In this document: piece after piece, positions 3,101-21,051 of the stretch
Position numbering within the stretch: the stretch's first letter is position 1
How the letters are laid out: every line of letters starts with the position of its first letter
Virus record (IMG/VR): IMGVR_UViG_3300010885_037026
Span: 1 to 21,745 of that record
Length of the DNA: 21,745 bases
Reading direction: 5' to 3' (one strand)
From: a virus
Made by a program: the position numbers and the translations under genes
Notes under the pieces: generated by a model
Database searches by the model: none
Seen by the model: the letters and a program-made list of their open reading frames with translations, nothing else
Told to the model about the DNA's origin: nothing

Positions 3101-5656
3101 AAAGTAACTAAAATTAATAGTATCATAAATGATATTAATAATAAAGATGCTGGACTTCCTATTTCTTATCTTACAAGAAGTACTGATATTAATGTTATTA
3201 ATGCATATAATTCTTTGTTGGCCAACAAAGAATTTATTGTTGAAGAAGTAATTGCTTATATTGATCAAACTTACAATCCAGGTAAGTTTAATTATAATGA
3301 AGAACTATGCTATAGAGATACAGGTCTAATTGTTGATGCAGTTAGCCAAGATATCTTATTAGGTGGCAATCAGAAATCTGTAGAGGCTGGACTAGCATAT
3401 TGGAATTTTGGTTACAATCAAGTAACTGGACAAGAAACTACCACAACAATGGCAATTAATCATGCTAGAGATATTGCTTTGCAAATTATTGCTAACACTG
3501 CTGTAACTCCGCAGGCACAAACGCTTACTCCACAAGTTATTAATACATTCTTCCAGTATGGCTCTGATTATATGCCACAACAAGCGGTAACTCGTAACTT
3601 TGGTATTGTAACTGATATTATTGAAAGAGGTCCGTTATATGCACCTCCAATATATGCAGGCGATGGATTATTTGCATTAACTGGGTTAAATGGATCCGAT
3701 GTAAAAATATCTCCAAAAGTTACATCTGTCTCTAACATTAGTGGAAATCAATATTTAATTGGATTAAGTGAACCAACTATTGGTTTTGGGAATAATGCCA
3801 CATTATATTTTGGCAACACCTCGATATATCCTATACGAGATTCAGAAGTAGAAGCATTAAGTTTAGAATATACAAACACTGCTACAACATGGAATACCCG
3901 TAAAGTTGATCCAATCGGAAGTATGGGAGGTAGTTTAGTCGATGGTGCAGTGATTAGTACTCGCAGCCCTATTCAATCATTTGTTTATGATGCATTTACA
4001 CAAGTTAATCAAGGCGGTAGAGGTGTACATATTACTAATAATGGATATGCACAGTTAGTTTCTGTGTTTACAATTTTCTGCTCAATTGGTGTACAAACAG
4101 ACAATGGCGGTATTGCAAGTATTGTTAATAGTAATGCTAACTTTGGTGATATTTGTTTATTGTCAACTGGCTATGGAGAACGTAAATTTAGTGGAACAAT
4201 TTATAATCCAGATTATAAAGCATATCCAGATGATCCAGATCTCAATAATTATTATCCAAATGGATTTTGGCCAAATAATGCTCGTGTCAGAGTATTCTTA
4301 CCTGACATTGATGATAGACCACACATTTCATTGGTTATGGAAGTAGTACCTCCAAACACATACAAAGATTTTTCAGGAACAATTGTACCTTATAGAAATG
4401 ATCAAGGATTCCCTGGGTTCTTAAATGCTGCTCCTAATACTGGAACATTAACAACTAGCAGTATTACAATTACTGGTATTGATACCACTGGTATTGCTAT
4501 AGGAAATAGTTTATACATACGAGATCAATATGGAAGCCAAGTTGGGTCAAATGGTTTACAATATGCAGCTAGCGGAACGGTTGTAACAGCAATTGGCTAT
4601 CAGAGTGTTACATTAAATTTTGCACTAACAAGTGGCGGTTTTGATTCAGGAAACACCGCAAATAGTTACAATAATAACTATTTTGATCTATATTTTTGCG
4701 GAAATGCTTACTATACAGTACTGAGTAGCGAAGTAGGTGATAATCCTAAAACATCAGGTATTAATATATTATCAGCTGCTGGTACAGGCGGCGCTGATCA
4801 AATAGCTAATCATCGAGCAGCATTAACTTATTTAAACACATTGGTTGATCAAGTTATTGATAATCAAACAGTAACAAGATTACAAACTAATATAAGTCAA
4901 ACTAAATTATCGTTGGTAACAGGTGGAGCCAAAGCGACAACATTTATTGATCTAAGATTTGAAGAAATAGATTTAATTATTGGTGCTGCTAATCTACCAG
5001 CGGCAGAAGCAGTAAGACCTCCATCGCAACGAACAAAGACCGGCCCTGCTGTACAAGGCAGCGGCAGTGCAATTACGTTAATTAAAGCAAACATTGACTT
5101 TTTAGCTGCAGAAATTTACGCTTACATAACATCACCTAGCGGATTAAATTTTACAAATTATAATCAAGATAAATGCGACAGAGATATTAGATTAATTCTA
5201 CAAAGATTAATCTATGATATTGAAACCGGCGGAAGATATAATAGTGTAATGTCTGGGTTAAGTTATTGGTCAAGAGATAACGCACATCACATTGTACAAC
5301 TTGGTGAAAATGTAACAAGAACCGACTTATTCCCAGATGGATCAAGTGTAAACTTCTATCAACGTAGTTATATTAGTGCCAGTGGATATGTATTTGAATA
5401 CGTAGGTGCTGGTACTAATTACGGAGCACTACCACAACGAGGTGTTGCAGATCCTGTACAAGGTAAAGAAGTTGTGCAGTTAGATAGTGGTAAAGTATTC
5501 TTTACTTCAACTGATCAAAATGGTGACTTCCGTATTGGTCCAGGATTGGTAATTAGTCAAGCAACAGGTGTTCTAAGTGGTAGAACATTTACTAAATCTT
5601 TATTTGCTAATATGACTCCGTTCATTCTAGCAATTGAGGGCGGCGGCGTAATATAA
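104..5656 (+). CDS. Giant virion structural/adhesin protein, beta-helix plus helical repeats (1850 aa)
   Basis: Probably a very large tail-fibre or baseplate-associated virion protein. Residues 1-320 are Thr/Ser/Gly/Asn-rich beta sequence with two copies of the GGVGI cassette (around residues 140 and 245). From about 325 there is a pectin-lyase/DUF1565-like opening (YVTVDGNDTNDG, then SPGHYLEDNPLRL), typical of right-handed beta-helices. Residues ~537-1180 hold four tandem helical repeats of ~166 aa, each with a motif of the type YNxxxCxRD. Beta-helix-like sequence resumes around 1280-1380 (DGAVISTRSP, GGRGVHITNNGYAQLVS). A fifth helical repeat lies at ~1662-1740, and the C-terminus has a GKVFFTSTDQNGDFRIG segment that I recall from structural proteins of T4-like aquatic phages. 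The ATG follows GAGGATCAGAGA. There is no signal peptide or membrane segment. Virion role is well supported by context and composition; the exact position in the particle is unknown. Confidence 0.8.
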   Translation: MTTNVLNLPGNYKIVASGTNGTVYISANTVLGTGTYTNSVQVLSTFTSDLIPSITTPGIGVYNLGTEINSWQTFYINQIQQVGTGTQYLNTFSNTENVGNGSKPYAPFTGNNASTSWMWDGLYDSTENRKQAAIYVAGGVGIEKDLNVGGHIYGRIEFANTTTYIVFTNTNESIEYNISFISREYPLDNQSSLYIDTTSTSVRSTSSTGLTYNAFLGRISTDRMLVAQTDRSTSTQTGALVVNGGVGIAGTMTIGGSILPTPTLQNKIGNTSSQWAEAHIHDIYTKLITSTTSTIEIKPGGGLTDVYGDIRVRGTNPIGTAPVVTNVLYVTVDGNDTNDGRAMDASRACRTIGAALNSPYYQPGTQILVSPGHYLEDNPLRLKPYTSVRGSDIRTTFIEPINKTQDLFHLESGCYLNYMTFLNGRSGLLEGQYAQGFNRGAYATSFPPLTGDERIDLFHSPYVQNCTNQSGPWLKDGTMFVPDQTVQVPVAVGTGTWVANTTTIVVSTSMGTIVLGMSINAGQQNPGFFNARTLLLANKPFLQEQVVKYINQQISINAGIWNNFTYNQEKCRRDVGILIENVAYDAAFGGNEKAVESGLAYYNGVVSLIAGQEAQTTAAITYLKNRCLEVITNTPCTNTIVGGLYTQVQNTVLTNGDISNSSITKLFEIITTIINNGPSAAPSVYKSTGPDAAFVSAEILMQANRKFIQEDTINYINNEIYNIGDGWFPYNKIKCRRDTRLIVDSISLDLLYSSLTQSNFAGIQYWNKSGYIGNISTEINTTTSAVRYLKDLSIKIIKNITPADELVDRFYVATQDTSVESATDTEVSIISQLFNTIIDILNGTNTTWTDSIIPNGNVSQLLSIQHAVTSLQNNKSYIKEEVNAYVQASIASGGLGFSSSNYNPDTCKRDVGFMIDCVSFDLLLGGNRQSIQAGVYYLGFSSSTTIQGQEIQTTNAFTYLSTIAQKIIQNIPVSAMQLKVKQNLSLDPATSTEATNLNAKVTKINSIINDINNKDAGLPISYLTRSTDINVINAYNSLLANKEFIVEEVIAYIDQTYNPGKFNYNEELCYRDTGLIVDAVSQDILLGGNQKSVEAGLAYWNFGYNQVTGQETTTTMAINHARDIALQIIANTAVTPQAQTLTPQVINTFFQYGSDYMPQQAVTRNFGIVTDIIERGPLYAPPIYAGDGLFALTGLNGSDVKISPKVTSVSNISGNQYLIGLSEPTIGFGNNATLYFGNTSIYPIRDSEVEALSLEYTNTATTWNTRKVDPIGSMGGSLVDGAVISTRSPIQSFVYDAFTQVNQGGRGVHITNNGYAQLVSVFTIFCSIGVQTDNGGIASIVNSNANFGDICLLSTGYGERKFSGTIYNPDYKAYPDDPDLNNYYPNGFWPNNARVRVFLPDIDDRPHISLVMEVVPPNTYKDFSGTIVPYRNDQGFPGFLNAAPNTGTLTTSSITITGIDTTGIAIGNSLYIRDQYGSQVGSNGLQYAASGTVVTAIGYQSVTLNFALTSGGFDSGNTANSYNNNYFDLYFCGNAYYTVLSSEVGDNPKTSGINILSAAGTGGADQIANHRAALTYLNTLVDQVIDNQTVTRLQTNISQTKLSLVTGGAKATTFIDLRFEEIDLIIGAANLPAAEAVRPPSQRTKTGPAVQGSGSAITLIKANIDFLAAEIYAYITSPSGLNFTNYNQDKCDRDIRLILQRLIYDIETGGRYNSVMSGLSYWSRDNAHHIVQLGENVTRTDLFPDGSSVNFYQRSYISASGYVFEYVGAGTNYGALPQRGVADPVQGKEVVQLDSGKVFFTSTDQNGDFRIGPGLVISQATGVLSGRTFTKSLFANMTPFILAIEGGGVI
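1712..3520 (+). repeat. Four tandem ~166-residue helical repeats inside the giant protein
   Basis: Copies begin near nt 1712, 2209, 2721 and 3220 (residues about 537, 703, 873, 1039), spaced 166, 170 and 166 aa. Each starts with a helix of the type ANKxFIxEExxxYI, then a cysteine motif (YNQEKCRRD, YNKIKCRRD, YNPDTCKRD, YNEELCYRD), then a helix ending near LLGGN, then TTxAxxYLxxxxxxII. A fifth, diverged copy (YNQDKCDRD) sits near nt 5088-5320. DNA identity between copies is visibly low while the protein motif is kept, so this looks like an old duplication under protein-level constraint. Confidence 0.75.
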
Positions 5657-5667
5657 AAGGATAAATC

Positions 5668-6081
5668 ATGGCGTTAATTCCATTAAACACATTTAAAACA
5701 AAAACAACGTTGTTGAGTTCTTCAACGTCATATACTAGCTGGAGCGCGGGATTAACTACATCCACAGTATATACTGCTCCAATTGGAACTACTGCTATTA
5801 TATTAATGGCACAGGTGGCTAACATTAGTACACAAACACAATATTGTAGTTTCATGCATCATAGAAATAGACCAGTTTTACAAGATGCACAAGGTAACGG
5901 TAGACAAGATGGAAATACAGATAGTTTTTTAACCAAAAACTTTGCAATTCCTGCAGGTGATTCTGCATCAGTGTTAACAGGTAAGCTAATTTTAGAACAA
6001 CTAGATAGTATTCGAGCATATGCTAGTAACACAAGTACACTTCAACTAGTATTGAGCGTATTAGAAACAGCAAATACATAA
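5668..6081 (+). CDS. Small virion structural protein (137 aa)
   Basis: A small, beta-rich protein with no recognisable enzyme motif. It opens MALIPLNTFKTKTT and its core (VYTAPIGTTAIILMAQVANIS, then FAIPAGDSASVLTGKLILEQ) reads like a compact beta-sandwich. I recall similar short proteins next to large fibre genes in T4-like aquatic phages, where they are annotated only as structural. A GKLILE segment near residues 103-109 is followed by a short strand and ends without a coiled coil. The ATG is 11 bp after the previous stop and has AAAGG as its ribosome-binding site. Likely co-transcribed with its neighbours; it might be a fibre-associated or decoration protein. Confidence 0.65.
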   Translation: MALIPLNTFKTKTTLLSSSTSYTSWSAGLTTSTVYTAPIGTTAIILMAQVANISTQTQYCSFMHHRNRPVLQDAQGNGRQDGNTDSFLTKNFAIPAGDSASVLTGKLILEQLDSIRAYASNTSTLQLVLSVLETANT

Positions 6082-6093
6082 AGAGAGATTAAT

Positions 6094-7479
6094 ATGGCTA
6101 TTTTATTAAGTGGATCAAAATTAAGAACTGGTGGTAGTGGTGAGTTTTTACCATTAAAAGATGCACAACCCCAGTTACCTGCAACTGATTCCACTACCAC
6201 TGGCTTTACCTTAATCACTAATAACGTACTACAGACTAGATATGCATCTAGTTTGGGTAACATTGAGTTTAATCAATCAAGTATGTATAGTAATCAAAGT
6301 AAAGGAACTATTACTATACTTGCAACAGGCACAGTTTCAGTATCAACTAGCACAGCTACCGGAACGTTGGTTGTACAAGGAGGCGTTGGAATTGGTAGAA
6401 ATTTATGGGTTAAAGAAGATATCCATGTTAATAATTTAACAATAGGCCGCGGCTACGAAGGTAAAAATAATATTGTTATTGTTGGAAAAGCTGATACTAT
6501 TTTAGTTCCAGTAGCAGGACAAGAAAATTTATCAATTGGATATAATACATTACAAAGTTTAGATACTGCTCATAGAACAATTGCAATTGGTTCTCATATT
6601 TTTAGCACCGGAACATATATTGCTGATAGTATTGCTATTGGTAATAAAACTATGGAAAACTTAGGTGCTATTCACTCTGTATTTGTAAAAAGCATAACTG
6701 GTGCTACTCAAGCAAATCCTGTAGTAATAGAAGTTATAGGACACGGTTTAAGTACAGGGTCACATGTTATCATTACCAATTTAGGAGGAATGACACAATT
6801 AAATGGCAATGAATATTATGTTAATGCAGACAATGCTAATCATTTGTCCTTATATACTGATATTATTTTATCATCTAAAGTTGACGGTACTGGATATACA
6901 GCATATGCTAACAGTGGAACTTTATCTAGAGTAGTATATAGTAATAATAATATTGCCATAGGCAACGATACTGCTCCAAAATTAATTGATGGGGAACATA
7001 ATTTCTTTATTGGTAATAGAACTGCTAAAGATTTAAGTACAGGATCGTATAATTTCTTCTTAGGCACAGATGTTGGAAATAATATAACTCAAGGAAGTGG
7101 AATAATTTCCATTGGCGCTGAAACCATAATTGATGGAGTAGATGATCAAATAGGTATTGGTAGTGTATTTTATTATAACGGTACTGGAACTAGTGAAATA
7201 TATTCATCACTAAGTGTAGGGTTAGGTGAAGCGGCAATATCAACTTCGTCCGGAGCCCTTATGGTCACAGGTGGTGTTGGTATTTCTGGTAGTGTATACA
7301 GCGCAGAAGGTCAAGCAGACGAAAATTATCTGATATATACGCCTAGAATAACTATAAGTACAACGGCTCCTACGGATGCACGTATAGGAGATTTTTGGAT
7401 TAATACAACCATTAGTGCATATCTACAATATATCAATGATGGTGGCAACCGTCTTTGGTTGCAAGTTAGTTCAATTTAA
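6094..7479 (+). CDS. Fibre-like virion protein with YadA-head-like turns and an inserted FCCH-like domain (461 aa)
   Basis: Probable tail-fibre or tail-associated protein. The N-terminus (MAILLSGSKLRTGG) resembles that of the 641-aa protein at 13269. One GGVGIG cassette lies near residue 92 and another near 390. Between them are repeated turns of the type SxAIGxxT/A (SIGYNTL, AIGSHIF, SIAIGNKT, IAIGNDTA, FFIGNRTA, FFLGTDVG, ISIGAETI), as in the left-handed beta-roll of YadA/Hep_Hag trimeric adhesins. At about 198-282 these turns are interrupted by a domain with the pattern TGATQANPVVIE, GHGLSTGSHVIITN, GMTQLNG, GTGYTAYANSGTLSRV, which resembles the FCCH-like module common in phage tail proteins. 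The end (GDFWINTTISAYLQY, NRLWLQV) is a small Trp-rich beta module. Start is 12 bp after the previous stop with an AGAGAGA ribosome-binding site. Confidence 0.75.
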   Translation: MAILLSGSKLRTGGSGEFLPLKDAQPQLPATDSTTTGFTLITNNVLQTRYASSLGNIEFNQSSMYSNQSKGTITILATGTVSVSTSTATGTLVVQGGVGIGRNLWVKEDIHVNNLTIGRGYEGKNNIVIVGKADTILVPVAGQENLSIGYNTLQSLDTAHRTIAIGSHIFSTGTYIADSIAIGNKTMENLGAIHSVFVKSITGATQANPVVIEVIGHGLSTGSHVIITNLGGMTQLNGNEYYVNADNANHLSLYTDIILSSKVDGTGYTAYANSGTLSRVVYSNNNIAIGNDTAPKLIDGEHNFFIGNRTAKDLSTGSYNFFLGTDVGNNITQGSGIISIGAETIIDGVDDQIGIGSVFYYNGTGTSEIYSSLSVGLGEAAISTSSGALMVTGGVGISGSVYSAEGQADENYLIYTPRITISTTAPTDARIGDFWINTTISAYLQYINDGGNRLWLQVSSI

Positions 7480-7496
7480 TAAATGAGAAACATATC

Positions 7497-8402
7497 ATGT
7501 CAACATCGTCATTAGGATTCCCAATACCACCAGTACGTGTAAATGGTTATTTGTATACTCCTCCAGGAAGTAGCAAAACTTATAAATGGAGTGATCCTAC
7601 AGGCGCTTGGATAATACAAACTGCACAAAATACTGCTACTAGTGTTGTTAGTCCATTGGTTATCATTACCTCTGCTACTAATTCTATTTCCACAGAGACC
7701 GGTGCATTAGTTGTAAAAGGTGGAGTTGGTATTGGTGGAGATGTACATATAGGTGGAATACTTTTTACAAATGATGTTCCTGTGCTAACGGCAACAAGTT
7801 TTAATATCAGTGACGGACCAGATGGCGGAGTTGATACTAATATCGTACATGTTGTAGATCCAGTTTCGCATACATCGACTATATTAATTAATAATATTTC
7901 AACATTAGATACAGTAACAAGTAGGGGTGCGGTTAGTTCACATGTGATTACAATTACTAATGCTACTTCGTCAACTAGTGTTAGTTCAGGTGCATTAGTA
8001 GTCACCGGTGGCGTTGGAATTGCAGGAAGGGTAAATACAGAAAGTATACAAATTGCTGATACTGTATTTGACTCAACTGATACTTTTGTAAATTCAACAG
8101 ATGAATATGTTGTTGATTCTTACTTGTTGAGTCAATATACATCGTCAAAATATTTTATACAAATATCAGACGGAACTAATTCTCATGCAGTAGAAATGAT
8201 TTTAACTGCAAGTAGTGATGGAACACCATATATGACACAATACGGACAAGTAACCACAGCAGGGGAATTAGGAACATTTAGTGCAACAGGAGAATCAACC
8301 AGTGGTGGCGATATATTAATATCTTTAACGTTTAGAACAACAATTTTCCCACCAACAAAACGTATTAAAGTATTAAGAACAGCAATGACCTCTGGTATTT
8401 AA
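7497..8402 (+). CDS. Fibre-like virion protein (301 aa)
   Basis: Probable fibre or tail-tip protein. Residues ~1-40 (PPVRVNGYLYTPPGSSKTY, then KWSDPTGAWI) form a Trp/Tyr-rich module that resembles the C-terminal end of the 461-aa neighbour. Two GGVGI cassettes follow (around residues 70-85 and 165-180) with Thr/Ser-rich beta linkers between them. The C-terminal third (from about residue 200: YVVDSYLLSQYTSSKYFIQI, then YGQVTTAGELGTFSA and PPTKRIKVLRTAM) looks like a separate beta-sandwich domain that I recall from structural proteins of T4-like aquatic phages. There is no signal peptide, membrane segment or catalytic motif. The start is 17 bp after the previous stop and the gene ends 11 bp before the next start. 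Confidence 0.7.
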   Translation: MSTSSLGFPIPPVRVNGYLYTPPGSSKTYKWSDPTGAWIIQTAQNTATSVVSPLVIITSATNSISTETGALVVKGGVGIGGDVHIGGILFTNDVPVLTATSFNISDGPDGGVDTNIVHVVDPVSHTSTILINNISTLDTVTSRGAVSSHVITITNATSSTSVSSGALVVTGGVGIAGRVNTESIQIADTVFDSTDTFVNSTDEYVVDSYLLSQYTSSKYFIQISDGTNSHAVEMILTASSDGTPYMTQYGQVTTAGELGTFSATGESTSGGDILISLTFRTTIFPPTKRIKVLRTAMTSGI

Positions 8403-8413
8403 AGGAATAAAAA

Positions 8414-11400
8414 ATGGCAATAGCAGTAATCACAGAAGATTTTGTAACCAGAAGTGGATTAATTGTTCAAGGAACAGGAACGGTTACAAGTTCTACAGGG
8501 CAAACTACATCCCTGCAAGTTAATAGTGGCGCTGCTATTGCTAAAAATTTAATTGTAGGAACCAATGCTAGAGTTTATGGCAATTTAACCGCAGACGGCA
8601 ATGCATTAATTGCTGGTAATGTATTTCTTAACGGTAGTGTTACCTTAACATCTACTTCTGCTACAAATTTACAACTATCTAATAATACTACTGCAACTAC
8701 CGGCGGCGCCGGCGCACTCAGAATAGTTGGTGGTGCATATATTGGTGATAACATAGTAATAGCAGGAACTAACGCCAGTACAAGCAGTGTAACAAGCAAC
8801 TCTTTATATGTTGCTGGTGGGGTAGGTATTGCTAATTCATTGGTAGTATCAGGTACTGCATTATTTCAAAATGATGTTATTTTTAGCGGTGGCACAACTA
8901 ATGTTTTTAGTACCAACACAGTTTATACTGATAACTTAATTGAATTACATGTTCCTAGTAATGATACATGGGGATTAGATGACGGAAAAGATATAGGGTT
9001 GCGTTTCCATTATTATAACGGAGGCAACCAAAATGGAGCATTGGTACTAGCCAATGATACAAAATATCTTGAATGGTATAATACAGGCGCAGAATCTACC
9101 ACTGGAACATTTACAGCTACTACATATGGAACATTTAAAACTGGAAATATAATATTAACCAGTAATGAAAATGCAACTAACACACAAACTGGATCTTTAA
9201 AATTAGTTGGTGGATTAGCAGTTGCACAAGACATATATGTTGGCGGCGTAGTTAGAGCATATAATTTTGTTGGAAATGTATTAGGCGGTGTTACCACAGC
9301 AACTAATATTGCTGGCGGCACAACAGGAGCAATATTATATCAGAGTGAAGAAGGTAAAACAACTTCATTGCCAATTGGTGGTGCTGGAGATGTATTATCA
9401 GTTAATGCTGGATTTCCAGCATGGTATCCATTATCAACAGTTCCTGTTGAATATGCAAATACAGCAACTAATATTGATGCTGGTAACGATATGCAAATTC
9501 CTTACCAAACTGGTATAGGACAAACAGCATTTGAATATAATTTAAGATACGATTATTCAACTAACACTTTAAACACAGTTAATGCTATATTCACAGGAAC
9601 TGATGTAGCATCAAGCACAGCCAGCGGTGCGTTGCAAGTAGTTGGTGGTGTTGGAATTGGTGGAAATTTGTATGTCGGCGGCAATCAAGTTTTATACGGT
9701 GATCTTGCTGTTCGCGGCGGGGATATCACTACTGATAGATTAACATTTAACTTAGCTAATACAGTGGCCACTACTGTTAATATTGCAGGATCTGCCACCG
9801 CAATTACAATAGGTGCTGACTCTGGATATGTATCAATTAGAAATACAGAAAATTCAGTAAGCACACTAACAGGTGCATTACGAGTTGCAGGTGGTGTTGG
9901 TATTGGTGGCGATGTATATATTGGCGGAACTACATATATTAGCCATAGTTTAATTCCAACCGCAAATAATGTTGCGCTAGGTTCTCCTACTAATCCAATT
10001 GCAGATTTGTTCTTGGGTGCTAATTCTTTATATGTTGATACTGTAAAATTATCTGCAACTGGTACAACAATGAATGTGTTAAGTACCAGCGGCCCTGTAT
10101 TGTTAAATGTAGCTGCTGGAATATTCACCACATCTACAAACTCAACTTCAACTACATCCGGTGCTTTGGTAATAGGCGGCGGTGTTGGAATGGGCGGCAC
10201 ATTATATGTTGGCGGCGACGAAATTCTATCTGGTAATCTTGCAGTAAATGGCGGAGACATTACTACTAACAATGCAACAGTCAATTTAGTTAACAATACT
10301 GCCACAACTGTTAATTTTGCAGGATCTGCAACAGCAATTACAATTGGTGCAACTTCGGGTTATGTTGCAATCAGGAATACACAAGCAGTATCAAATTCTG
10401 TAACAGGCGCTCTAAGAGTTGCAGGTGGTGTTGGAGTTGGTGGGAATTTATTTGTTAATGACACAATAACTGCTACTAATTTAGTAATCAAAGGAGCATA
10501 TGCTACTTCATACTTGGGCAACTATGGAAGTTTATACATAGATGGATCAAGTGGTAATCAATTAATTCAAGGATCAACTAATAGCCTAGCAAATGGTATT
10601 GGTATGTGGACTGCAGGTATACTTAATAGTACAGTATACTCTAGTGGCGGCATTGATTTTGCAACTGGTAAAACTCTAAGACTCAATAATACACCAACAG
10701 GCGGCGTGACTCGAATGTCAATTAGTGCTGCTGGTAATGTAAGTATGACTGCTGGCACAGCATCAACTGGTTCAACCACAGGTACATTGGTTGTAACCGG
10801 CGGTGTTGGTATAAGCGGTGATTTATACGTTGGTGTCAACGGTTATATTAATGGTGCTGCAATTATTACCACAGCTACTGTAGGAAATTTTGGTGTATCA
10901 AGCCTTACTGCAGGAACTGACACCGCAATTAGTGCATCTATTGGTGCTGTTACAATATGGAATACAAGTACTTTACAAAGTATTACCAACAGAAGCAATT
11001 CTACTACTAATGCAATATCCATCACAAATGCAACATCGGCAACATCAACTATAACAGGTGCATTAAGAGTTGCAGGCGGTGTTGGAATTGGTGGAAGATT
11101 ATATGTAGGCGATAGAATTCTAGCAACCAACACTACAACTTCCGTATCAAGCACTACCGGAGCATTAATTGTAACAGGTGGGGCAGGTATTGGCGGAACT
11201 GTAAATATTGGTACGAACTTGTATGTAAGTGGATCAATTTATGGAACACTTAATGGATTAGTTACTACTGCTACCAATATTGCCGCAGGCGGTCCAGGAC
11301 AAATTCCTTATCAGTCAGCTAAGGGTGTTACACAATTTATAGATACAGGTACATCTGGACAAATATTAATTAGTAATGGTATAACTGCTCCAACGTTTGT

Positions 11401-13024
11401 AAATACCGCTTCATTAATTGTTGGATATTCAATTAATGTGCAAGGCGGTTCAGCAGGATCTTTAGTATATCAAACTGCACCAAATACTACTGGTTTTATT
11501 AGTACAGGTTCTTTATATGTAGGATCAGCAGTTACTGCTACCAATATAATCGGCGGTACTATTGGATCATTACCATATCAAAGTTCTGCTGGTATAACTG
11601 CAATGTTACCCATTGGAACTAGTGGATATCTATTAACATCCGACGGCTCTAACCCTAGTTGGACATCACTAGGTGCATTGTCTGCTGGTACAGCAACCAA
11701 TGTTTCTATTACAAATGATATATCTAGTGCCACTGTACATTACATTACTTTCTTAAGTACAACTACAAACGCGTCTGGCATTAAAACATCTGGTCCTTCT
11801 GGATTAACTTATATACCAAATACAGGATATACTGGATTTGGTGTTGCAACTCCTACTGTTAAAGTAGATATTGGTGGTGCGGTAAGAATATCAGGAATAA
11901 CCAATATAACAAACAATACCGCAGCATCTAGTACAATTACAGGTGCATTGACTGTAGCCGGCGGTGTAGGTATAGGCGGAAATTTATATGTTGGCGGCAA
12001 CACCATTGGCACAGATCAAACTAGTGTTAATTTACTAAACACAGTAGCTACTACTGTTAATTTTGCAGGAGCCAGCACTACTATTAATATTGGTGCTAGC
12101 ACAGGTGATACTAACATTAATAACAATTTAAATGTAGTAGGGAATTTAACTGTACAAGGTACAACTACCGTAGTTGACAGTACAGTAACTAATATTTCAG
12201 ATCCTATTATTACCTTAGGCGGTGGACCAAATAATTCTGCTGCTACAGTCGATGATAATAAAGATAGAGGTGTTGCATTTAGATGGATGACTGGTGGAGT
12301 AGCAAAAACTGGGTTCTTTGGATATCAAGATGCTCCTGGATTTTTTACGTTTATCCCCGATGCTACTATTTCAAACGAAATTGCTAGCGGAACTAAAGGA
12401 GCAATAGATGCACATCTAGCAGGTGGTGGTGCAAATTCTATAGTATATCAAAGTGCTTCTAATACCACAGCATTCCTTACTAATGCATCTACATCAGGAT
12501 ATGTATTAACTTCATTGGTAGGAGGTGTACCTTATTGGGGATTAGCAAATGGAGGTAATGCAGGATCTGCAAGTACAGCAACCAATCTTGCTGGCGGAAG
12601 TCCTGGACAAATTCCGTATCAAATAGCTAGCAGCTCAACTGGATTTATTTCAACAGGCGCTGTAGGTAATGTGTTAGTAAGTAATGGAACTAGTGCTCCT
12701 GCTTATCAAAACACATTAACGTTAGCTGGTACAACTGTTGCAACAAATACAACAACTGGCGCATTACAAGTAAGAGGTGGGGTTGGTATTGGTGGAAACT
12801 TATATGTTGGCGGAAATAGCAATATTGCTGGTATAACAACAATTACTAATACAACTAATTCTCTAACAACTAATTCAGGTGCTCTGCAAGTTGCAGGCGG
12901 CCTTGGAGTAGGCGGTAACATTTATTCGGGTAACAAAATTGGGTGGACATCAGCTACAAATGTTAGTGCAGTATACCAGTATTATAATGTTGCCACAAAT
13001 AGTTTAGATACAGTTTTTGGTTAA
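8414..13024 (+). CDS. Long multi-repeat fibre protein (1536 aa)
   Basis: Probably a long, fibrous tail protein; almost the whole chain is repetitive Thr/Ser/Gly/Ala/Asn-rich beta sequence. Three repeat types can be seen. Type A is the [19 protein letters not shown] cassette, about 13 copies. Type B starts TATNIAGG and continues GQIPYQS, an FIxTG turn and GQILxSNGxxAPxW, about seven copies. Type C is TTVNFAGSATAITIGA, three copies. Two larger domains share a (D)DxKDxGxxF core: residues ~165-235 (DDGKDIGLRFHYYNGG) and ~1253-1340 (DDNKDRGVAFRWMTGG). The C-terminus ends YQYYNVATNSLDTVFG, a chain end I recall from fibre-like proteins of T4-like aquatic phages. There is no S74 chaperone, so folding may rely on a partner. 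AAAGGA precedes the ATG. No catalytic motif or signal peptide is visible. Confidence 0.75.
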   Translation: MAIAVITEDFVTRSGLIVQGTGTVTSSTGQTTSLQVNSGAAIAKNLIVGTNARVYGNLTADGNALIAGNVFLNGSVTLTSTSATNLQLSNNTTATTGGAGALRIVGGAYIGDNIVIAGTNASTSSVTSNSLYVAGGVGIANSLVVSGTALFQNDVIFSGGTTNVFSTNTVYTDNLIELHVPSNDTWGLDDGKDIGLRFHYYNGGNQNGALVLANDTKYLEWYNTGAESTTGTFTATTYGTFKTGNIILTSNENATNTQTGSLKLVGGLAVAQDIYVGGVVRAYNFVGNVLGGVTTATNIAGGTTGAILYQSEEGKTTSLPIGGAGDVLSVNAGFPAWYPLSTVPVEYANTATNIDAGNDMQIPYQTGIGQTAFEYNLRYDYSTNTLNTVNAIFTGTDVASSTASGALQVVGGVGIGGNLYVGGNQVLYGDLAVRGGDITTDRLTFNLANTVATTVNIAGSATAITIGADSGYVSIRNTENSVSTLTGALRVAGGVGIGGDVYIGGTTYISHSLIPTANNVALGSPTNPIADLFLGANSLYVDTVKLSATGTTMNVLSTSGPVLLNVAAGIFTTSTNSTSTTSGALVIGGGVGMGGTLYVGGDEILSGNLAVNGGDITTNNATVNLVNNTATTVNFAGSATAITIGATSGYVAIRNTQAVSNSVTGALRVAGGVGVGGNLFVNDTITATNLVIKGAYATSYLGNYGSLYIDGSSGNQLIQGSTNSLANGIGMWTAGILNSTVYSSGGIDFATGKTLRLNNTPTGGVTRMSISAAGNVSMTAGTASTGSTTGTLVVTGGVGISGDLYVGVNGYINGAAIITTATVGNFGVSSLTAGTDTAISASIGAVTIWNTSTLQSITNRSNSTTNAISITNATSATSTITGALRVAGGVGIGGRLYVGDRILATNTTTSVSSTTGALIVTGGAGIGGTVNIGTNLYVSGSIYGTLNGLVTTATNIAAGGPGQIPYQSAKGVTQFIDTGTSGQILISNGITAPTFVNTASLIVGYSINVQGGSAGSLVYQTAPNTTGFISTGSLYVGSAVTATNIIGGTIGSLPYQSSAGITAMLPIGTSGYLLTSDGSNPSWTSLGALSAGTATNVSITNDISSATVHYITFLSTTTNASGIKTSGPSGLTYIPNTGYTGFGVATPTVKVDIGGAVRISGITNITNNTAASSTITGALTVAGGVGIGGNLYVGGNTIGTDQTSVNLLNTVATTVNFAGASTTINIGASTGDTNINNNLNVVGNLTVQGTTTVVDSTVTNISDPIITLGGGPNNSAATVDDNKDRGVAFRWMTGGVAKTGFFGYQDAPGFFTFIPDATISNEIASGTKGAIDAHLAGGGANSIVYQSASNTTAFLTNASTSGYVLTSLVGGVPYWGLANGGNAGSASTATNLAGGSPGQIPYQIASSSTGFISTGAVGNVLVSNGTSAPAYQNTLTLAGTTVATNTTTGALQVRGGVGIGGNLYVGGNSNIAGITTITNTTNSLTTNSGALQVAGGLGVGGNIYSGNKIGWTSATNVSAVYQYYNVATNSLDTVFG
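8708..12930 (+). repeat. Type A cassette array (GGVGIGG repeats)
   Basis: About 13 copies of a ~20-residue cassette begin near nt 8708, 8803, 9187, 9623, 9871, 10157, 10405, 10777, 11057, 11158, 11939, 12758 and 12877. The best copies share [13 protein letters not shown]; weaker ones read GGAYIGDNIVIAG or GGLAVAQDIYVGG. Spacing is irregular (about 95 to 820 bp), so this is a dispersed protein module and not a simple tandem DNA repeat. The hydrophobic-Gly alternation suggests one or two turns of a beta-solenoid or trimeric beta-prism. Confidence 0.8.
9623..10464 (+). repeat. Segmental duplication within the 1536-aa gene
   Basis: The unit starting at nt 9623 (residue 404) and the unit starting at 10157 (residue 582) match in order over ~100 residues: a type A cassette, GDLAVRGGDITT versus GNLAVNGGDITT, a type C motif, GYVSIRNT versus GYVAIRNT, and a second type A cassette. 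The offset is 534 bp. A third, partial copy starts near 11939. Synonymous differences are frequent, so the duplication is not recent. Confidence 0.7.
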
Positions 13025-13268: not shown

Positions 13269-15194
13269 ATGGCACAACTCTTATCTGGAACAAGAATATA
13301 CGGAACTGGTACAGTAGATACCCGTCTAATAATTAACGGAGGTACCAATTCTAGTTCAACTGCAACAGGTGCATTAAATGTTGTAGGTGGAGTTGGAATA
13401 GGAGGCAATATTCACTTTGGTGGTAATTTATATCAAAATGGTGTTTTATTCTCCTCAGCTAGCCAGGGTGTACAAGGCGTGCAAGGCAATAATGGAACAC
13501 AGGGTGTTCAAGGTAGTCAGGGCACCGATGGTACCCAAGGCAGACAAGGTACTCAAGGTGCTCAAGCATCACAAGGTGTTCAGGGTGCTCAAGCATCTCA
13601 AGGCGTGCAAGGCAATAATGGAACACAGGGTGTTCAAGGTGCTCAAGCATCACAGGGTGTTCAAGGCGCTCAAGGCGTACAAGCGTCACAAGGTACTCAA
13701 GGTCCACAGGGTGTACAAGCTGCTCAAGCTGCACAAGGTGTTCAAGGTGCTCAAGCATCCCAAGGTGTTCAAGGTGCTCAAGCATCCCAAGGTGTTCAAG
13801 GCGCATCGGCTTCACAAGGCGTTCAAGGTGTTCAGGGTCCACAAGGAGTTCAAGGTTCTCAGGCATCGCAAGGTGTTCAGGGATTAGCAGGCCAAGTTCA
13901 AGGTGTGCAAGGTGTACAGGGCGCCCAAGGCGTACAAGCAGCACAAGGTACTCAAGGAGTGCAAGGATTAGCAGGCCAAGTTCAGGGCGTACAAGGTGTA
14001 CAAGGAGTATTAGGACAACAAGGTGTACAAGGGGTACAAGGCGTATTTGGTACTCAAGGTACTCAAGGTGTTCAAGGCGCTCAAGGCGTACAAGCAGCAC
14101 AAGGTAGTCAAGGTGTACAAGGTGTCCAGGCAGCACAAGGCACCCAAGGAGTACAAGGTTTAGCTAATCAAGGTACTCAAGGTGTACAGGGGTTAGCTAA
14201 TCAAGGTACTCAGGGCGTACAAGGTGTACAAGGAGTATTAGGACAACAAGGTGTACAAGGGGTACAAGGCGTATTTGGTACTCAAGGTACTCAAGGTGTT
14301 CAAGGCTCACAAGGTGCTCAGGGAATTCAAGGTGTACAAGCAGCACAAGGCGTCCAGGGTGTACAAGGCGTACAAGCGTCACAAGGTACTCAAGGTGTAC
14401 AAGGTGTACAGGGCGCTCAAGGTGTACAAGCAGCACAAGGTAGTCAAGGTGTACAAGGCCGTCAAGGACCGCAAGGGGTTCAGGGTGTACAAGGTTTAGC
14501 TAATCAAGGTACTCAAGGTGTACAGGGGTTAGCCAATCAAGGTACTCAGGGTGTACAAGGTTTAGCTAATCAAGGTACTCAGGGTGTACAAGGCGTACAA
14601 GCGTCACAAGGTACTCAAGGTGTACAAGGTGTACAGGGGTTAGCCAATCAAGGTACTCAGGGTCGACAAGGTGTACAAGGCGTACAAGCGTCACAAGGTA
14701 CTCAAGGTGTACAAGGTGTACAGGGTGTACAAGGTGGCGGCGGCCAAGGTGTGCAAGGTGTACAAGGTGTAGGTAATCAAGGTACAACCGGTAATCCATT
14801 TGGCGGAGGCACATTTAGTGGTGCAGTAACAATGTCTGCTGGTTTAACAGTAACTGGTGCTATTACAGCAACTGGTGATATCACTGCATATTATACTTCA
14901 GATGCCCGCTTAAAAACCAATATTCAACTTATTACTAATGCATTAGAAAAAACTATGACATTGGATGGTATGACTTTTAACTGGAATGAACGAGCAGTAG
15001 GTAAAGAAACTACTATTAGAGAGCCTGGTGTTATTGCACAACAGATTTTAGAAGTATTACCGGAAGCTGTGGCTATAAGAGACAATGGTTACTATGCGGT
15101 AAGATATGAAAAAATCATTCCATTATTAATTGAGTCTATCAAAGAACTCAATGTTAAACTCGAAAAATTAGAAAAACAATCAAATACCCTCTAG
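13269..15194 (+). CDS. Collagen-like tail fibre with C-terminal S74 chaperone (641 aa)
   Basis: Probably a trimeric tail fibre or adhesin. Residues 1-64 hold an [14 protein letters not shown] start like that of the 461-aa protein and one GGVGIGG cassette. Residues ~65-508 are a collagen-like stalk built of G-x-Q triplets (GVQ, GAQ, GTQ, with ASQ, AAQ and GLANQ breaks) with almost no proline. A short beta segment follows ([20 protein letters not shown]). Residues ~541-641 are a Peptidase_S74 intramolecular chaperone: SDARLKTNI at the expected self-cleavage site, then [35 protein letters not shown] and a final coiled coil. In known S74 proteins this domain drives trimerisation and then cleaves itself off at the Ser of the SD motif. 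A hairpin terminator follows the gene, so it is likely last in its transcript. Confidence 0.88.
13459..14790 (+). repeat. 9-bp-periodic collagen-like stalk repeats
   Basis: About 1.3 kb of 9-bp units, mostly GGTGTACAA or GGTGTTCAA, encode G-x-Q triplets. Higher-order units are nested in it: a 33-bp unit coding [11 protein letters not shown] appears six times (two copies near 14149-14214, four between 14487 and 14670), and a 97-bp block at 13982-14078 recurs without mismatch at 14210-14306 (offset 228 bp). The repeat is coding and has no spacers, so it is not CRISPR. Its identity makes it prone to length change by recombination or slippage. Confidence 0.9.
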
Positions 15195-15258: not shown

Positions 15259-16239
15259 ATGACAAATCTTGCAAAATTCGCGCTCGATAGAGGAGGCAGT
15301 ATACATCCTCTTATTATTCCGTCAGCACAAACAAACGGCACGGGATTAATGAATCCATCTATTTTAATAGATAATGGAAAAATTATTGTTAATATTCGAC
15401 ACGTTAACTATACTTTTTTTCATTCAGAAAAGAAATTGTTCCAACATCCATGGGGTCCACTAACGTATCTGCACCCAGAAAACGATATTCATTTGAGAAC
15501 AGATAACTATTATTGTGAACTCAATGATGATTTTGAAATTACTAGATTCAATAAAATTGATACTTCTAAATTTGACACCTATGAACCCATGTGGGATTTT
15601 GTTGGATTAGAAGATGTAAGGCTAATGAGATGGGATGGAAAGTTATACATAACTGGTGTACGCAGAGACACTACTACTAATGGGCAAGGTAGAATGGAAC
15701 TATCCGAAATAGTAGTTTCAACTAACACAGTCACAGAAATATCCAGATTTAGAATTCCACCTCCTAAGGATGTAAATTCATATTGTGAAAAAAACTGGAT
15801 GCCTATCCTAGATATGCCATTTCATTATATTAAATGGACAAATCCAACTGAAGTAGTAAGTGTTGATCCGACTACTAAAACTTCTAAAACTGAACAACTA
15901 GGTGATACGATATACCTACCTAGAGATATACGAGGTGGATCTCAAGTAATGGAATTTAATGGAAATTATATTGCATTAACACACGAAGTGGATTTATTTA
16001 AAAGCGAAGTTGGAAGAAAAGATGCAGTATATAAACATAGATTTATTATATGGGATAAAAATTGGAATATAATTAAACACACCAATGATTTCTCTATCAT
16101 GGATGCTCATGTTGAATTTTCAATTGGAATGTGCAAATATCATGATGACATATTAATTACATTTGGTTTTCAAGATAACGCGGCATATCTTCTAAAGATT
16201 TCTGCAATAGAACTTGAAAATTTTATAAATTCTCATTAG
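15259..16239 (+). CDS. GH130/GT108-like five-bladed beta-propeller protein (326 aa)
   Basis: Probably a sugar-active or sugar-binding propeller. Motifs spaced as in GH130-type propellers are visible: MNPSILIDNGKIIVNIRHVN near residue 31, GLEDVRLMRWDGKLYITGVR near 116 (compare the EDPR signature of GH130), EKNWMP near 177, RGGS at 225-228 followed by a strand and ALTHEV, and GMCKYHDDILITFGFQDNAA near 293-306. Length fits the family (about 300-350 aa). Family members act as mannoside phosphorylases or, in GT108, mannosyltransferases; I cannot show that the catalytic Asp is present, so activity is unproven. It is first in a four-gene run and ends seven bases before the next start. No signal peptide, so it acts in the infected cell or on the virion. 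Confidence 0.55.
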   Translation: MTNLAKFALDRGGSIHPLIIPSAQTNGTGLMNPSILIDNGKIIVNIRHVNYTFFHSEKKLFQHPWGPLTYLHPENDIHLRTDNYYCELNDDFEITRFNKIDTSKFDTYEPMWDFVGLEDVRLMRWDGKLYITGVRRDTTTNGQGRMELSEIVVSTNTVTEISRFRIPPPKDVNSYCEKNWMPILDMPFHYIKWTNPTEVVSVDPTTKTSKTEQLGDTIYLPRDIRGGSQVMEFNGNYIALTHEVDLFKSEVGRKDAVYKHRFIIWDKNWNIIKHTNDFSIMDAHVEFSIGMCKYHDDILITFGFQDNAAYLLKISAIELENFINSH

Positions 16240-17514: not shown

Positions 17515-18435
17515 ATGACACAAACACACAAAGTAAGAGTTTTTCCAGGAGTTTTCACAGAGAAGTGGAGACTCGCGCATTCCCCTACATTAGAGATTAC
17601 CACAATAATTCCAAAAAAAGGATGTGTGGTAGATTGTGTTTTTTGTCCACAACGTATCTTGGAGACTCGATACAAAGGCGAAACGACATTATCTATTGAA
17701 GGATTTAAAACTCTAATAGACAAAGTACCTAAAGAAATTAGAATTACATTTTCTGGATTTGTTGAACCGTGGATGAACAAATATTGTACAGATATGTTAT
17801 TATATGCACATGAGCAAGGCCATCCTGTTTCGGTATTCACCACTGGTATAGGAATGTCTATAGAAGATATGCAACGTATAAAGCATATTCCTTTTGCACC
17901 TAATCCCAACGGCGGTTTTGTACTACATTTACCTGATCAAAAGAGAATGGCAAAACATCCGATCACCAAAGGTTATATCAAACTTTTAGAATATATAAAA
18001 TCAATAGAAAGTGAAATAACCAATTTTAGTACTATGTCAATGAGTCAAGAGATGCATGATGATATTAAACATATATATACGTGGGCGCCTGTACACGAAA
18101 TGTGGGGCCGTGCAGGTAACTTAATTGGCGAAGCATTATTAAAACCAGAATTAGATCAGTTAAAAGATGGGTATAAAACAATATTCCATGGCAATAAAGA
18201 TATGACATGTAATTGTTCTGAAAGATTATATCATAATGTGTTATTGCCTAACGGAGATGTGTCTCTCTGTTGCATGGATTATGGGCTAGAAAATATTTTA
18301 GGCAATCTCTATGATCAGAGTTATGAAGCAATAATTCCACAACCTTACGCAACTTTTAAAATTTGTAGATCCTGTGAAAATGGAATAAAATTAGATTCTG
18401 ATATAATTAAATTTGAAAGAAGTTTTATAAGATGA
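17515..18435 (+). CDS. Radical SAM enzyme with SPASM-type C-terminal domain (306 aa)
   Basis: Radical SAM enzymes use a 4Fe-4S cluster to cleave SAM and start a radical reaction. The cluster motif CxxxCxxC is at Cys37, Cys41 and Cys44 (GCVVDCVFCPQ). A conserved region with ITFSGFVEPWMN follows near residue 82, matching the GGEP-type SAM-binding position. The C-terminal domain carries further cysteines at 232, 234, 252, 253, 284 and 287 in the order CNCSERL, GDVSLCCMDYGLENILGNL, CRSCENG, as in SPASM/twitch auxiliary-cluster domains. Known SPASM proteins modify peptides (sactipeptides, PQQ, mycofactocin) or act in carbohydrate clusters. Its neighbours favour a sugar role, but peptide modification cannot be excluded. 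The gene overlaps the next one by ATGA, so the two are probably translated together. Confidence 0.85.
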   Translation: MTQTHKVRVFPGVFTEKWRLAHSPTLEITTIIPKKGCVVDCVFCPQRILETRYKGETTLSIEGFKTLIDKVPKEIRITFSGFVEPWMNKYCTDMLLYAHEQGHPVSVFTTGIGMSIEDMQRIKHIPFAPNPNGGFVLHLPDQKRMAKHPITKGYIKLLEYIKSIESEITNFSTMSMSQEMHDDIKHIYTWAPVHEMWGRAGNLIGEALLKPELDQLKDGYKTIFHGNKDMTCNCSERLYHNVLLPNGDVSLCCMDYGLENILGNLYDQSYEAIIPQPYATFKICRSCENGIKLDSDIIKFERSFIR

Positions 18436-19232: not shown

Positions 19233-19669
19233 AATAAATCTAATAGTAATTCTAGTTTAGCTCTGATAATTTTATTATTAAAAGAGCTCTTTACTGCCCT
19301 GTGTAAAGGCTTCGGCCATTGATCATAACTGGCCCATGCATACCCATCATGCTCATCATTTAATACAGGTATAAATTCGCGATCAATAACTAATACATAT
19401 GTATTATATTGAAATTGTTGATCATTGCTAATAAACAATTCTAACGGAATTACTTTTTTTATTGTAGGTGTTTTACCTACTTCTTCTTGTATTTCTCGTG
19501 TAAGGGCATCAAAAGGTGTGCTATCAGATGGCTCTTTTTTACCTCCAACTAATCCCCAGGTGCCTGCTGTTTTAGTCTGTGTTCTTGACAAGAATAAAAA
19601 GCGTTTAGTGTCTTTAGCAAGAAATAATCCACCACTACACACTACTTGATTTACAGTACTAATCTCCAT
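19229..19669 (-). CDS. Nudix hydrolase (146 aa)
   Basis: Nudix enzymes hydrolyse nucleoside diphosphates linked to another group, such as ADP-ribose, NDP-sugars or dinucleoside polyphosphates, using metal bound by the Nudix box. The box here reads GGKKEPSDSTPFDALTREIQ then EEVG (residues 42-65), with the catalytic REIQEE at 58-63. It is one residue longer than the canonical box and has SDS where a GE pair is usual, so the first Glu of the box is not in place. The preceding SRTQTKTAGTWGLV and the trailing Trp-rich segment are typical of the family. The start lies inside the end of gp15 (19-bp overlap), so translation is probably coupled. T4-like phages often carry Nudix genes. Substrate is unknown; a nucleotide-sugar would fit the neighbouring block. 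Confidence 0.85.
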   Translation of the reverse strand: MEISTVNQVVCSGGLFLAKDTKRFLFLSRTQTKTAGTWGLVGGKKEPSDSTPFDALTREIQEEVGKTPTIKKVIPLELFISNDQQFQYNTYVLVIDREFIPVLNDEHDGYAWASYDQWPKPLHRAVKSSFNNKIIRAKLELLLDLF

Positions 19670-21051
19670 AATGTTGCATTATAAATGCCCTCATAACTTT
19701 TACTCCATGCTCCGTTTTCCCACTTATATTGTGTGCTTGTATATGAGTTAGTTATGTATATAACACTATGAACAGAAGAAGAACTGAATACTATATTCCA
19801 TTGGCTACCATTCCATTCAATTATATCATTAGCAAATGCTTGGAAATCAGTACCATTGAGATTTTGCCATGCCGTTGGTCCTTGATATCCCGGTTGGCCA
19901 AACTGTGAATTATTATTAATATCTTCTAATATCAAGTATCGTGTATTTGTCGCAACTGCACCTGGATTAAATGTGTCGGGATTAATTACCGCATCAACAG
20001 TGCCTCTGCCTGCAATAATAGTATTGCTAGGTATTGTATCTCTGTTTATGTTCAATCTCATAATAAACTCGTCACTGGGATCTAAACTCATGTATGCAAT
20101 AACTTCATTGCCGTCTGATTGCGAAAATCTCAATTCACTTAAACTTGCTCTAAACTTTCCGGGATATAAATCTAAAATCTTGAGCCAGGATGCTGTATTC
20201 TTGGGTGATGTAATATCAATGTTTTCGCCAGCACCATTGCGATGTATTAATCTTGCTGTATCGTTTAATACCAATAAATCATAATTTCCTGGAGTTATCG
20301 TAACTGTGGTATCAGGAGAAATATTTGAAAATACATCTGCTGCTCCTGCTTGATCATATACATTGGCAATTGTACCCTGAGCACTTGACGCAAATATATT
20401 AGATATAATTTTAGTTATAACACCTAATTTTTTAACTTTAGCCGGGGGAGTAATCCATATAGGTGTATCAAACGACATAGTCATGATATCAATATCTTCA
20501 GTAACTCCTTGGGGAATTTGTCTACTAGTCCAATTTACATCATCTAATCTAACAGTGCTTAAACTGGTCCAATCAAGATAGTTATCAGTAGTTTGGATTT
20601 CAAAGCTCGGAGTAAAGAAAACTGCGATTTGTTCAAACAGTTGTAATTTTTGATCATTACTTGTAGTCCATATATCAGCATTTAATGTTAGTTTATAGGG
20701 ACTGGGCATGATACGTTCAATAGTATAGTTAGAGCCTTTTACATCTATGTACTGTTGAGTATCAGGATTTATTCCACGTTCTATAACATTAATTTTACTG
20801 ATAAAAGTTGGATCTTGTAAACGTTCTCTATCAAACTCTAATTCTTTTATATAGCAAGAAATAAAAGGAGCACTAGGAATAGTGTTCTCACTATTCTTCT
20901 TTAATATTTGTCCAACTTGCCTGGTCATATCTCCATAGCGAACAGGAACTTGTACCAGATTACCCTTGGCATCTTTATAGGCAAAGTTACTGAATATCTG
21001 AATAAATTGTGACAAATATCTACGTATTTGTCCGTCGTAAAAATAGTCCAT
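19651..21051 (-). CDS. 15: gp15-like tail sheath stabiliser with a long C-terminal extension (466 aa)
   Basis: In T4, gp15 caps the tail tube and sheath and joins the tail to the neck. The N-terminal ~235 residues resemble T4 gp15 from memory: a MDYFYDGQIRRYLSQFIQIFSN opening (T4: FGYFYNSSFRRYATLMGDLFSN), VPVRYGD, then PSPYKLTLNADIWTTSND and FEQIAVFFTPSFE, then FDTPIWITPP. T4 gp15 is about 272 aa, so ~200 residues here are extra. The extension (from about 260) is beta-rich and includes ITPGNYDLLVL, ASLSELRFSQSDG, RYLILEDINN, WNGSQWNIVFSSS and QYKWENGAW, with Trp-Gly turns like those in phage tail and fibre modules. The gene begins one base after the stop of the upstream gene. Confidence 0.75.
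   Translation of the reverse strand: MDYFYDGQIRRYLSQFIQIFSNFAYKDAKGNLVQVPVRYGDMTRQVGQILKKNSENTIPSAPFISCYIKELEFDRERLQDPTFISKINVIERGINPDTQQYIDVKGSNYTIERIMPSPYKLTLNADIWTTSNDQKLQLFEQIAVFFTPSFEIQTTDNYLDWTSLSTVRLDDVNWTSRQIPQGVTEDIDIMTMSFDTPIWITPPAKVKKLGVITKIISNIFASSAQGTIANVYDQAGAADVFSNISPDTTVTITPGNYDLLVLNDTARLIHRNGAGENIDITSPKNTASWLKILDLYPGKFRASLSELRFSQSDGNEVIAYMSLDPSDEFIMRLNINRDTIPSNTIIAGRGTVDAVINPDTFNPGAVATNTRYLILEDINNNSQFGQPGYQGPTAWQNLNGTDFQAFANDIIEWNGSQWNIVFSSSSVHSVIYITNSYTSTQYKWENGAWSKSYEGIYNATLWRLVL

Follow-up and report, generated by a model that had tools for sequence, protein, structure and literature searches.

The collagen helix is regarded as having a single rule, namely Gly in every third place, and in human collagen the replacement of one Gly causes disease. 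In a 21,745-nt stretch of the IMG/VR virus record IMGVR_UViG_3300010885_037026 (the whole stretch is referred to here as the window), a tail fibre gene encodes a long stalk of G-x-Q triplets in which Pro is scarce and Ala stands in the place of Gly in a number of triplets, raising the question of whether such a stalk forms a collagen-type triple helix or a different trimeric fold. If the former is true, phage stalks break the Gly rule many times per molecule, with a bias to Ala/Ser, small neighbours and a kept Gln, and would show how a helix tolerates the loss of Gly without proline or hydroxyproline; if the stalk is disordered or takes another fold, it is a warning that collagen profile matches in phage fibres are over-read.

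Genomic setting and domain organization of the fibre gene

Pfam and PHROGs matches showed that the 21.7-kb virus record carried, besides the fibre gene, a gp15-like gene, genes for large tail-fibre-like proteins and a galactosyltransferase-like gene. The gp15-like gene, located at nt 19651–21051 on the minus strand, encoded a protein similar to the T4 gp15 tail sheath stabiliser (Pfam T4-gp15_tss, E 2.6e-24), indicating that the window came from a T4-like myovirus. Aquatic T4-like phages are reported to carry triple collagen repeats within their structural operons and to have glycosyltransferase genes in clusters for host recognition (PMC7029224), and the window, judged from its gene content, is a fibre/host-recognition region of this type.

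The fibre gene was an open frame of 641 aa on the plus strand (nt 13269–15194), and its product matched the collagen repeat profile (PF01391, E 8e-42, 141 bits versus a cut-off of 27), Peptidase_S74 at the C-terminus (PF13884, E 7e-15), and many PHROGs tail-fibre families, the stalk being included in the latter matches. Four parts were distinguished, all on the plus strand. The N-terminal region (aa 1–63, nt 13269–13457), presumed to be the virion-attachment end, shared 75% identity with the fibre at the corresponding place in IMGVR_UViG_3300009151_000346 (L322) and contained a repeat that also occurs in the large structural proteins encoded upstream. This repeat, TGALxVxGGVGIxGxLxVxG, was present in many copies in several structural ORFs (nt 767–12949 of the window) as well as in the fibre N-terminus. 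The G-x-Q stalk (aa 64–510, 447 aa, nt 13458–14798) was delimited by triplet counts, shuffles and the Pfam Collagen match; the original prediction had placed it at nt 13459–14790, where a stalk was indeed found, although that start was one base out of frame. A short tip (aa 511–543, nt 14799–14897) followed in the sequence, in which no separate head domain was found between the stalk and S74. The S74 intramolecular chaperone (aa 544–641, nt 14898–15191) was assigned from Pfam, PDB matches (6f45 and 7dc3), alignment and position, in accordance with the S74 fibre that had been predicted, and its residues S544, D545, R547, L548 and K549 were invariant in an alignment of four sequences. As only about 33 residues separate the stalk from S74, the stalk would make up almost the whole of the mature fibre, leaving only a small tip. 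Long antisense ORFs lying over the stalk are by-products of its periodic codons.

Composition, periodicity and phase breaks of the stalk

Of the roughly 448 residues of the stalk, 135 were Gln, 128 were Gly and 4 were Pro, with charged residues that included 3 Arg and 1 Asp, and, in the 131 in-phase triplets, Y was Gln in 92.4% and X was Pro in 2.3%, so that the proline-poor, collagen-like G-x-Q stalk of the original prediction was recovered. Stabilisation by Pro/Hyp or by charge pairs, which is usual in collagen-like triple-helix proteins but not strictly required, was not apparent from the 4 Pro, 3 Arg and 1 Asp. A spacing of exactly 3 was observed in 112 of 134 Gln-Gln pairs and 97 of 127 Gly-Gly pairs, compared with means of 19.5 (maximum, 35) and 18.5 (maximum, 34), respectively, in 2000 composition shuffles. 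Uninterrupted G-X-Y runs averaged 3.7 triplets, the longest having 15.

At the Gly position of the in-phase triplets, Gly was found 112 times and Ala 19 times (12 ASQ and 7 AAQ), the presence of Ala in Gly's place having also been predicted. Triplet counting located the 19 Ala triplets at nt 13458–14696 on the plus strand, with first codons at nt 13458, 13566, 13593, 13647, 13683, 13719, 13728, 13755, 13782, 13809, 13863, 13938, 14094, 14130, 14340, 14376, 14430, 14601 and 14688. The phase-shifting breaks anticipated earlier were counted as two GLAGQVQ (nt 13881–13901 and 13965–13985) and six GLANQ of the G4G type (nt 14157–14651, starting at nt 14157, 14190, 14493, 14526, 14559 and 14637), all on the plus strand, to which GGGGQ and GVGNQ near the stalk end were added. 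Breaks in relatives were mostly gaps of 2 and 5 (G1G and G4G), followed by 7 and 4; GLSNQ was present in 17 other loci, GLANQ being its variant. G1G and G4G are the kinds of break named for type IV collagen (PMC9778032).

Long internal direct repeats were present in the stalk DNA, for example units of 294 and 247 nt with partial identity, indicating that stalk segments have been duplicated. Such repeats would also be expected if the periodic protein were a by-product of DNA repeat expansion carrying no selected fold, an origin that is very improbable, since Gly, Gln and Val were written with several synonymous codons, meaning that the protein pattern was not merely a copy of one DNA unit, and the spectrum of residues at the Gly position (see below) was sharply off the neutral one.

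Distribution of G-x-Q stalks and comparison with known fibres

Among the matches listed, tblastn of the whole fibre reached named phages at the S74 end only, and pattern scans and blastn of the stalk were therefore used; among the matches listed for a plasmid search, S74-end matches only were likewise found. Scanning IMG/VR for six consecutive G-x-Q triplets yielded at least 120 stretches, and among the 120 matches listed, proline-poor, Gln-rich G-x-Q tracts were observed in 51 ORFs from 45 loci. Related tracts were found in two isolated cyanophages, S-SCSM2R and DSL-LC02. Long G-x-Q tracts were fewer among the matches in bacterial genomes, many of which consisted of different low-complexity repeats, GQQ for example. 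Published averages for viral collagens are 13.0% for Gln at Y and 22.1% for Pro at X (PMC3368898, Table 4), from which the window stalk departs with its 92.4% and 2.3%. Thus, the statement that this stalk is unlike most phage collagens holds against the published viral tables but fails against viral contigs, in which at least 45 loci possess a like composition, and the composition can no longer be regarded as exceptional among phage fibres. The proline-poor G-x-Q composition is a widespread viral class, seemingly without a description in the open-licence literature, as no paper on G-x-Q phage collagen was found among open-licence papers.

The density of Gly-to-Ala triplets is the property by which the window stalk stands out. 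Under a strict flank rule, 16 Gly positions were replaced versus 52 kept (24%), whereas the highest value for any other ORF of the pattern-fetched set, among the matches listed, was 7%; a locus fetched by similarity (L250), with 43 Gly positions replaced and 56 kept, was comparable to or above the window. The L250 ORF, of 1675 aa, alternates QATQG, QNTQG and QSAQG, and Ala, Asn and Ser take the Gly position more often there than in the window.

The nearest counterpart, L322, has at the corresponding place a fibre that also possesses a long collagen-like stalk, with 75% identity in the N-terminus and 47% in S74, and a gene neighbouring this fibre is 88% identical to that in the window; however, its stalk, of the GTTGNQGVIGSQ type, contains neither Ala triplets nor GLANQ. 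A near neighbour having an alike N-terminus and S74 but no Ala triplets suggests that the Ala feature is recent or easily lost. The protein annotated as FhaB in cyanophage S-SCSM2R resembles the window stalk in having low-Pro G-x-Q tracts with GTQASQGTQ and GTQAAQGTQ, but these tracts are interrupted by globular domains, and no S74 was found in a motif search of that ORF. The E. coli prophage collagen-like proteins EPcl, in which a phage collagen domain lies within a trimeric fibre-like protein and for which a Tm of 42°C was measured, favour Gln at Y as in the window, but Pro takes 48% of their X positions, and about a third of the residues at X and Y are charged (PMC3368898). S74 fibres of S-SRM01, Sf-FS3 and ACG-2014i share 47% to 58% identity with the S74 end of the window fibre; neither these nor the S74 relative in P-SSM2 had a G-x-Q stalk in the stretches read. 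The distal subunit of the phage S16 long tail fibre (PDB 6f45) matched the C-terminal end of the window fibre weakly in sequence; the S16 adhesin uses a polyglycine-rich bundle, not a collagen-type stalk (cited in PMC11869133).

Residues replacing glycine in viral stalks

In viral G-x-Q stalks, many of which came from loci fetched with the window protein as the query, 181 distinct contexts with a replaced Gly position were collected, consisting of A 85, S 63, N 18, V 7, F 6, T 1 and W 1. Ala, Ser and Asn thus made up 166 of the 181, and Arg, Asp, Glu and Cys were found in none of them, whereas single-base changes from the observed Gly codons, with a transition weight of 2, would give 23% Arg, 16% Asp, 10% Glu and 8% Cys (57% together) under neutrality. 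The pattern-fetched subset gave the same spectrum (S 28, A 23, V 1 and T 1). Compared with triplets having Gly, those without it kept Gln more often (94%, 171/181, versus 76%, p 3e-11) and more commonly had a small residue at X (78% versus 40%, p 4e-24), the p values being optimistic and a guide only, because repeat copies are not independent and some of the stalks had been fetched by their similarity to that of the window. In the window, X was Ala or Ser in 19 of 19 Ala triplets versus 15 of 102 GxQ triplets, or, when distinct contexts were counted, in 9 of 9 versus 8 of 61.

In collagen peptides, destabilisation by the replacing residue increases in the order Ala < Ser < Arg < Val < Asp (PMC9405839). 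The two commonest replacements were the two mildest in this order, although past Ala and Ser the match was inexact, Val being found 7 times and Arg never, despite Arg being milder than Val. A bias to Ala and Ser combined with small X and kept Gln is the pattern that a tightly packed centre would select. Such a need for small residues does not by itself separate the collagen supercoil from another polyproline-II packing, such as an untwisted bundle or a fibre bonded mainly by Gln ladders instead of buried Gly, in which Gln would be the true invariant residue of the trimer. Untwisted polyproline-II bundles occur, for instance, in C1q peptides and in the long tail fibre of phage S16 (PMC11869133), and the slightly greater regularity of Gln than of Gly in the window, together with the retention of Gln in nearly all non-Gly triplets, would fit this arrangement. 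It is nevertheless unlikely, since across the class Gly is the more conserved residue (viral G-triplets lack Gln in 24%, whereas Gly is lost in about 1%) and the L322 stalk at the corresponding locus is built of GTTGNQ triplets, so that Gln recurs for the most part at every sixth residue. On sequence grounds, therefore, the Gly-position spectrum favours a triple helix over a different trimeric fold, and a different fold would not be needed to account for the G-x-Q stalk.

Predicted structure and assembly of the fibre

The stalk is probably a homotrimeric, proline-poor, collagen-type structure having tolerated Ala nodes and G4G-type breaks and nucleated by S74. The whole protein would form a homotrimeric fibre on the tail or baseplate of a T4-like phage, and its stalk, if fully helical, would extend about 129 nm (447 residues × 2.88 Å). 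Proteins of the S74 type trimerise, seed folding and then cleave themselves. By analogy, the C-terminal S74 would trimerise, seed the helix and set the register, the stalk would zip from S74 in the C to N direction, and S74 would then, to judge from the site, probably cleave itself off at Ser544. A triple helix leaves the Gln side chains at Y exposed and able to contact other chains; uncharged Gln at this position may bond to neighbouring chains and to water, replacing hydroxyproline or salt bridges. A solved collagen peptide structure shows an axial Gln-Phe contact (PMC9599227). Stabilisation of the stalk by Gln side chains is plausible. The Ala-x-Gln triplets and the breaks might be weak points that the helix tolerates and at which it loosens or bends, the stalk then being a flexible rope, not a rigid rod, and duplication or loss of repeats could allow quick change of stalk length and content.

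It counts against the collagen-type reading that a mean run of 3.7 triplets is short for a stable proline-free helix, and that a single Gly-to-Ala change reduced the melting temperature of a model peptide to 29°C, from 60°C without it (PMC9405839). The short Gly runs, along with the 19 triplets having Ala and the ten or so breaks, would also suit a flexible linker, largely disordered or only locally helical, connecting the anchor at the N-terminus to the S74 tip, as would the lack of structure over the stalk in a single-chain AlphaFold2 model (pLDDT about 26), which, being of a monomer only, says nothing either way on the fold. A linker of this kind appears quite improbable, as it would need neither a period of three residues kept strictly along some 447 aa nor a Gly-position spectrum free of charged residues. 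PDB sequence matches of the stalk to collagens were rejected as evidence of fold because they were composition-driven.

Within the collagen-type reading, it can be proposed tentatively, and with some doubt, that the stalk represents a distinct proline-free phage collagen in which Gln at Y and small X offset the loss of the central Gly, the helix surviving even when a quarter or more of its Gly positions are taken by Ala, Ser or Asn. Stalks of this kind would provide short repeat cassettes amenable to testing as synthetic peptides.

Other genes of the region

The 1850-aa structural ORF at nt 104–5656 of the window gave a whole-protein match to Pfam Phycobilisome (31.4 bits versus a cut-off of 22.2) with no single stretch passing; it contains repeated helical segments, and the match is probably due to chance or convergence. 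The 326-aa protein encoded at nt 15259–16239 matched no Pfam family above its cut-off and nothing in PHROGs or NCBIfam, while at least 599 relatives were present in viral contigs; its motifs resemble those of a GH130-type glycoside enzyme. A radical SAM/SPASM-type protein was encoded at nt 17515–18435, adjoining glycosyltransferase and NUDIX genes, and this group is possibly a surface-sugar or host-takeover module. In marine cyanophage Sf-FS3 (L401, nt 4333–5661), two Fe(2+)/2OG dioxygenase genes directly follow the S74 fibre, one of them annotated as prolyl 4-hydroxylase-type; that either acts on a fibre is conceivable.
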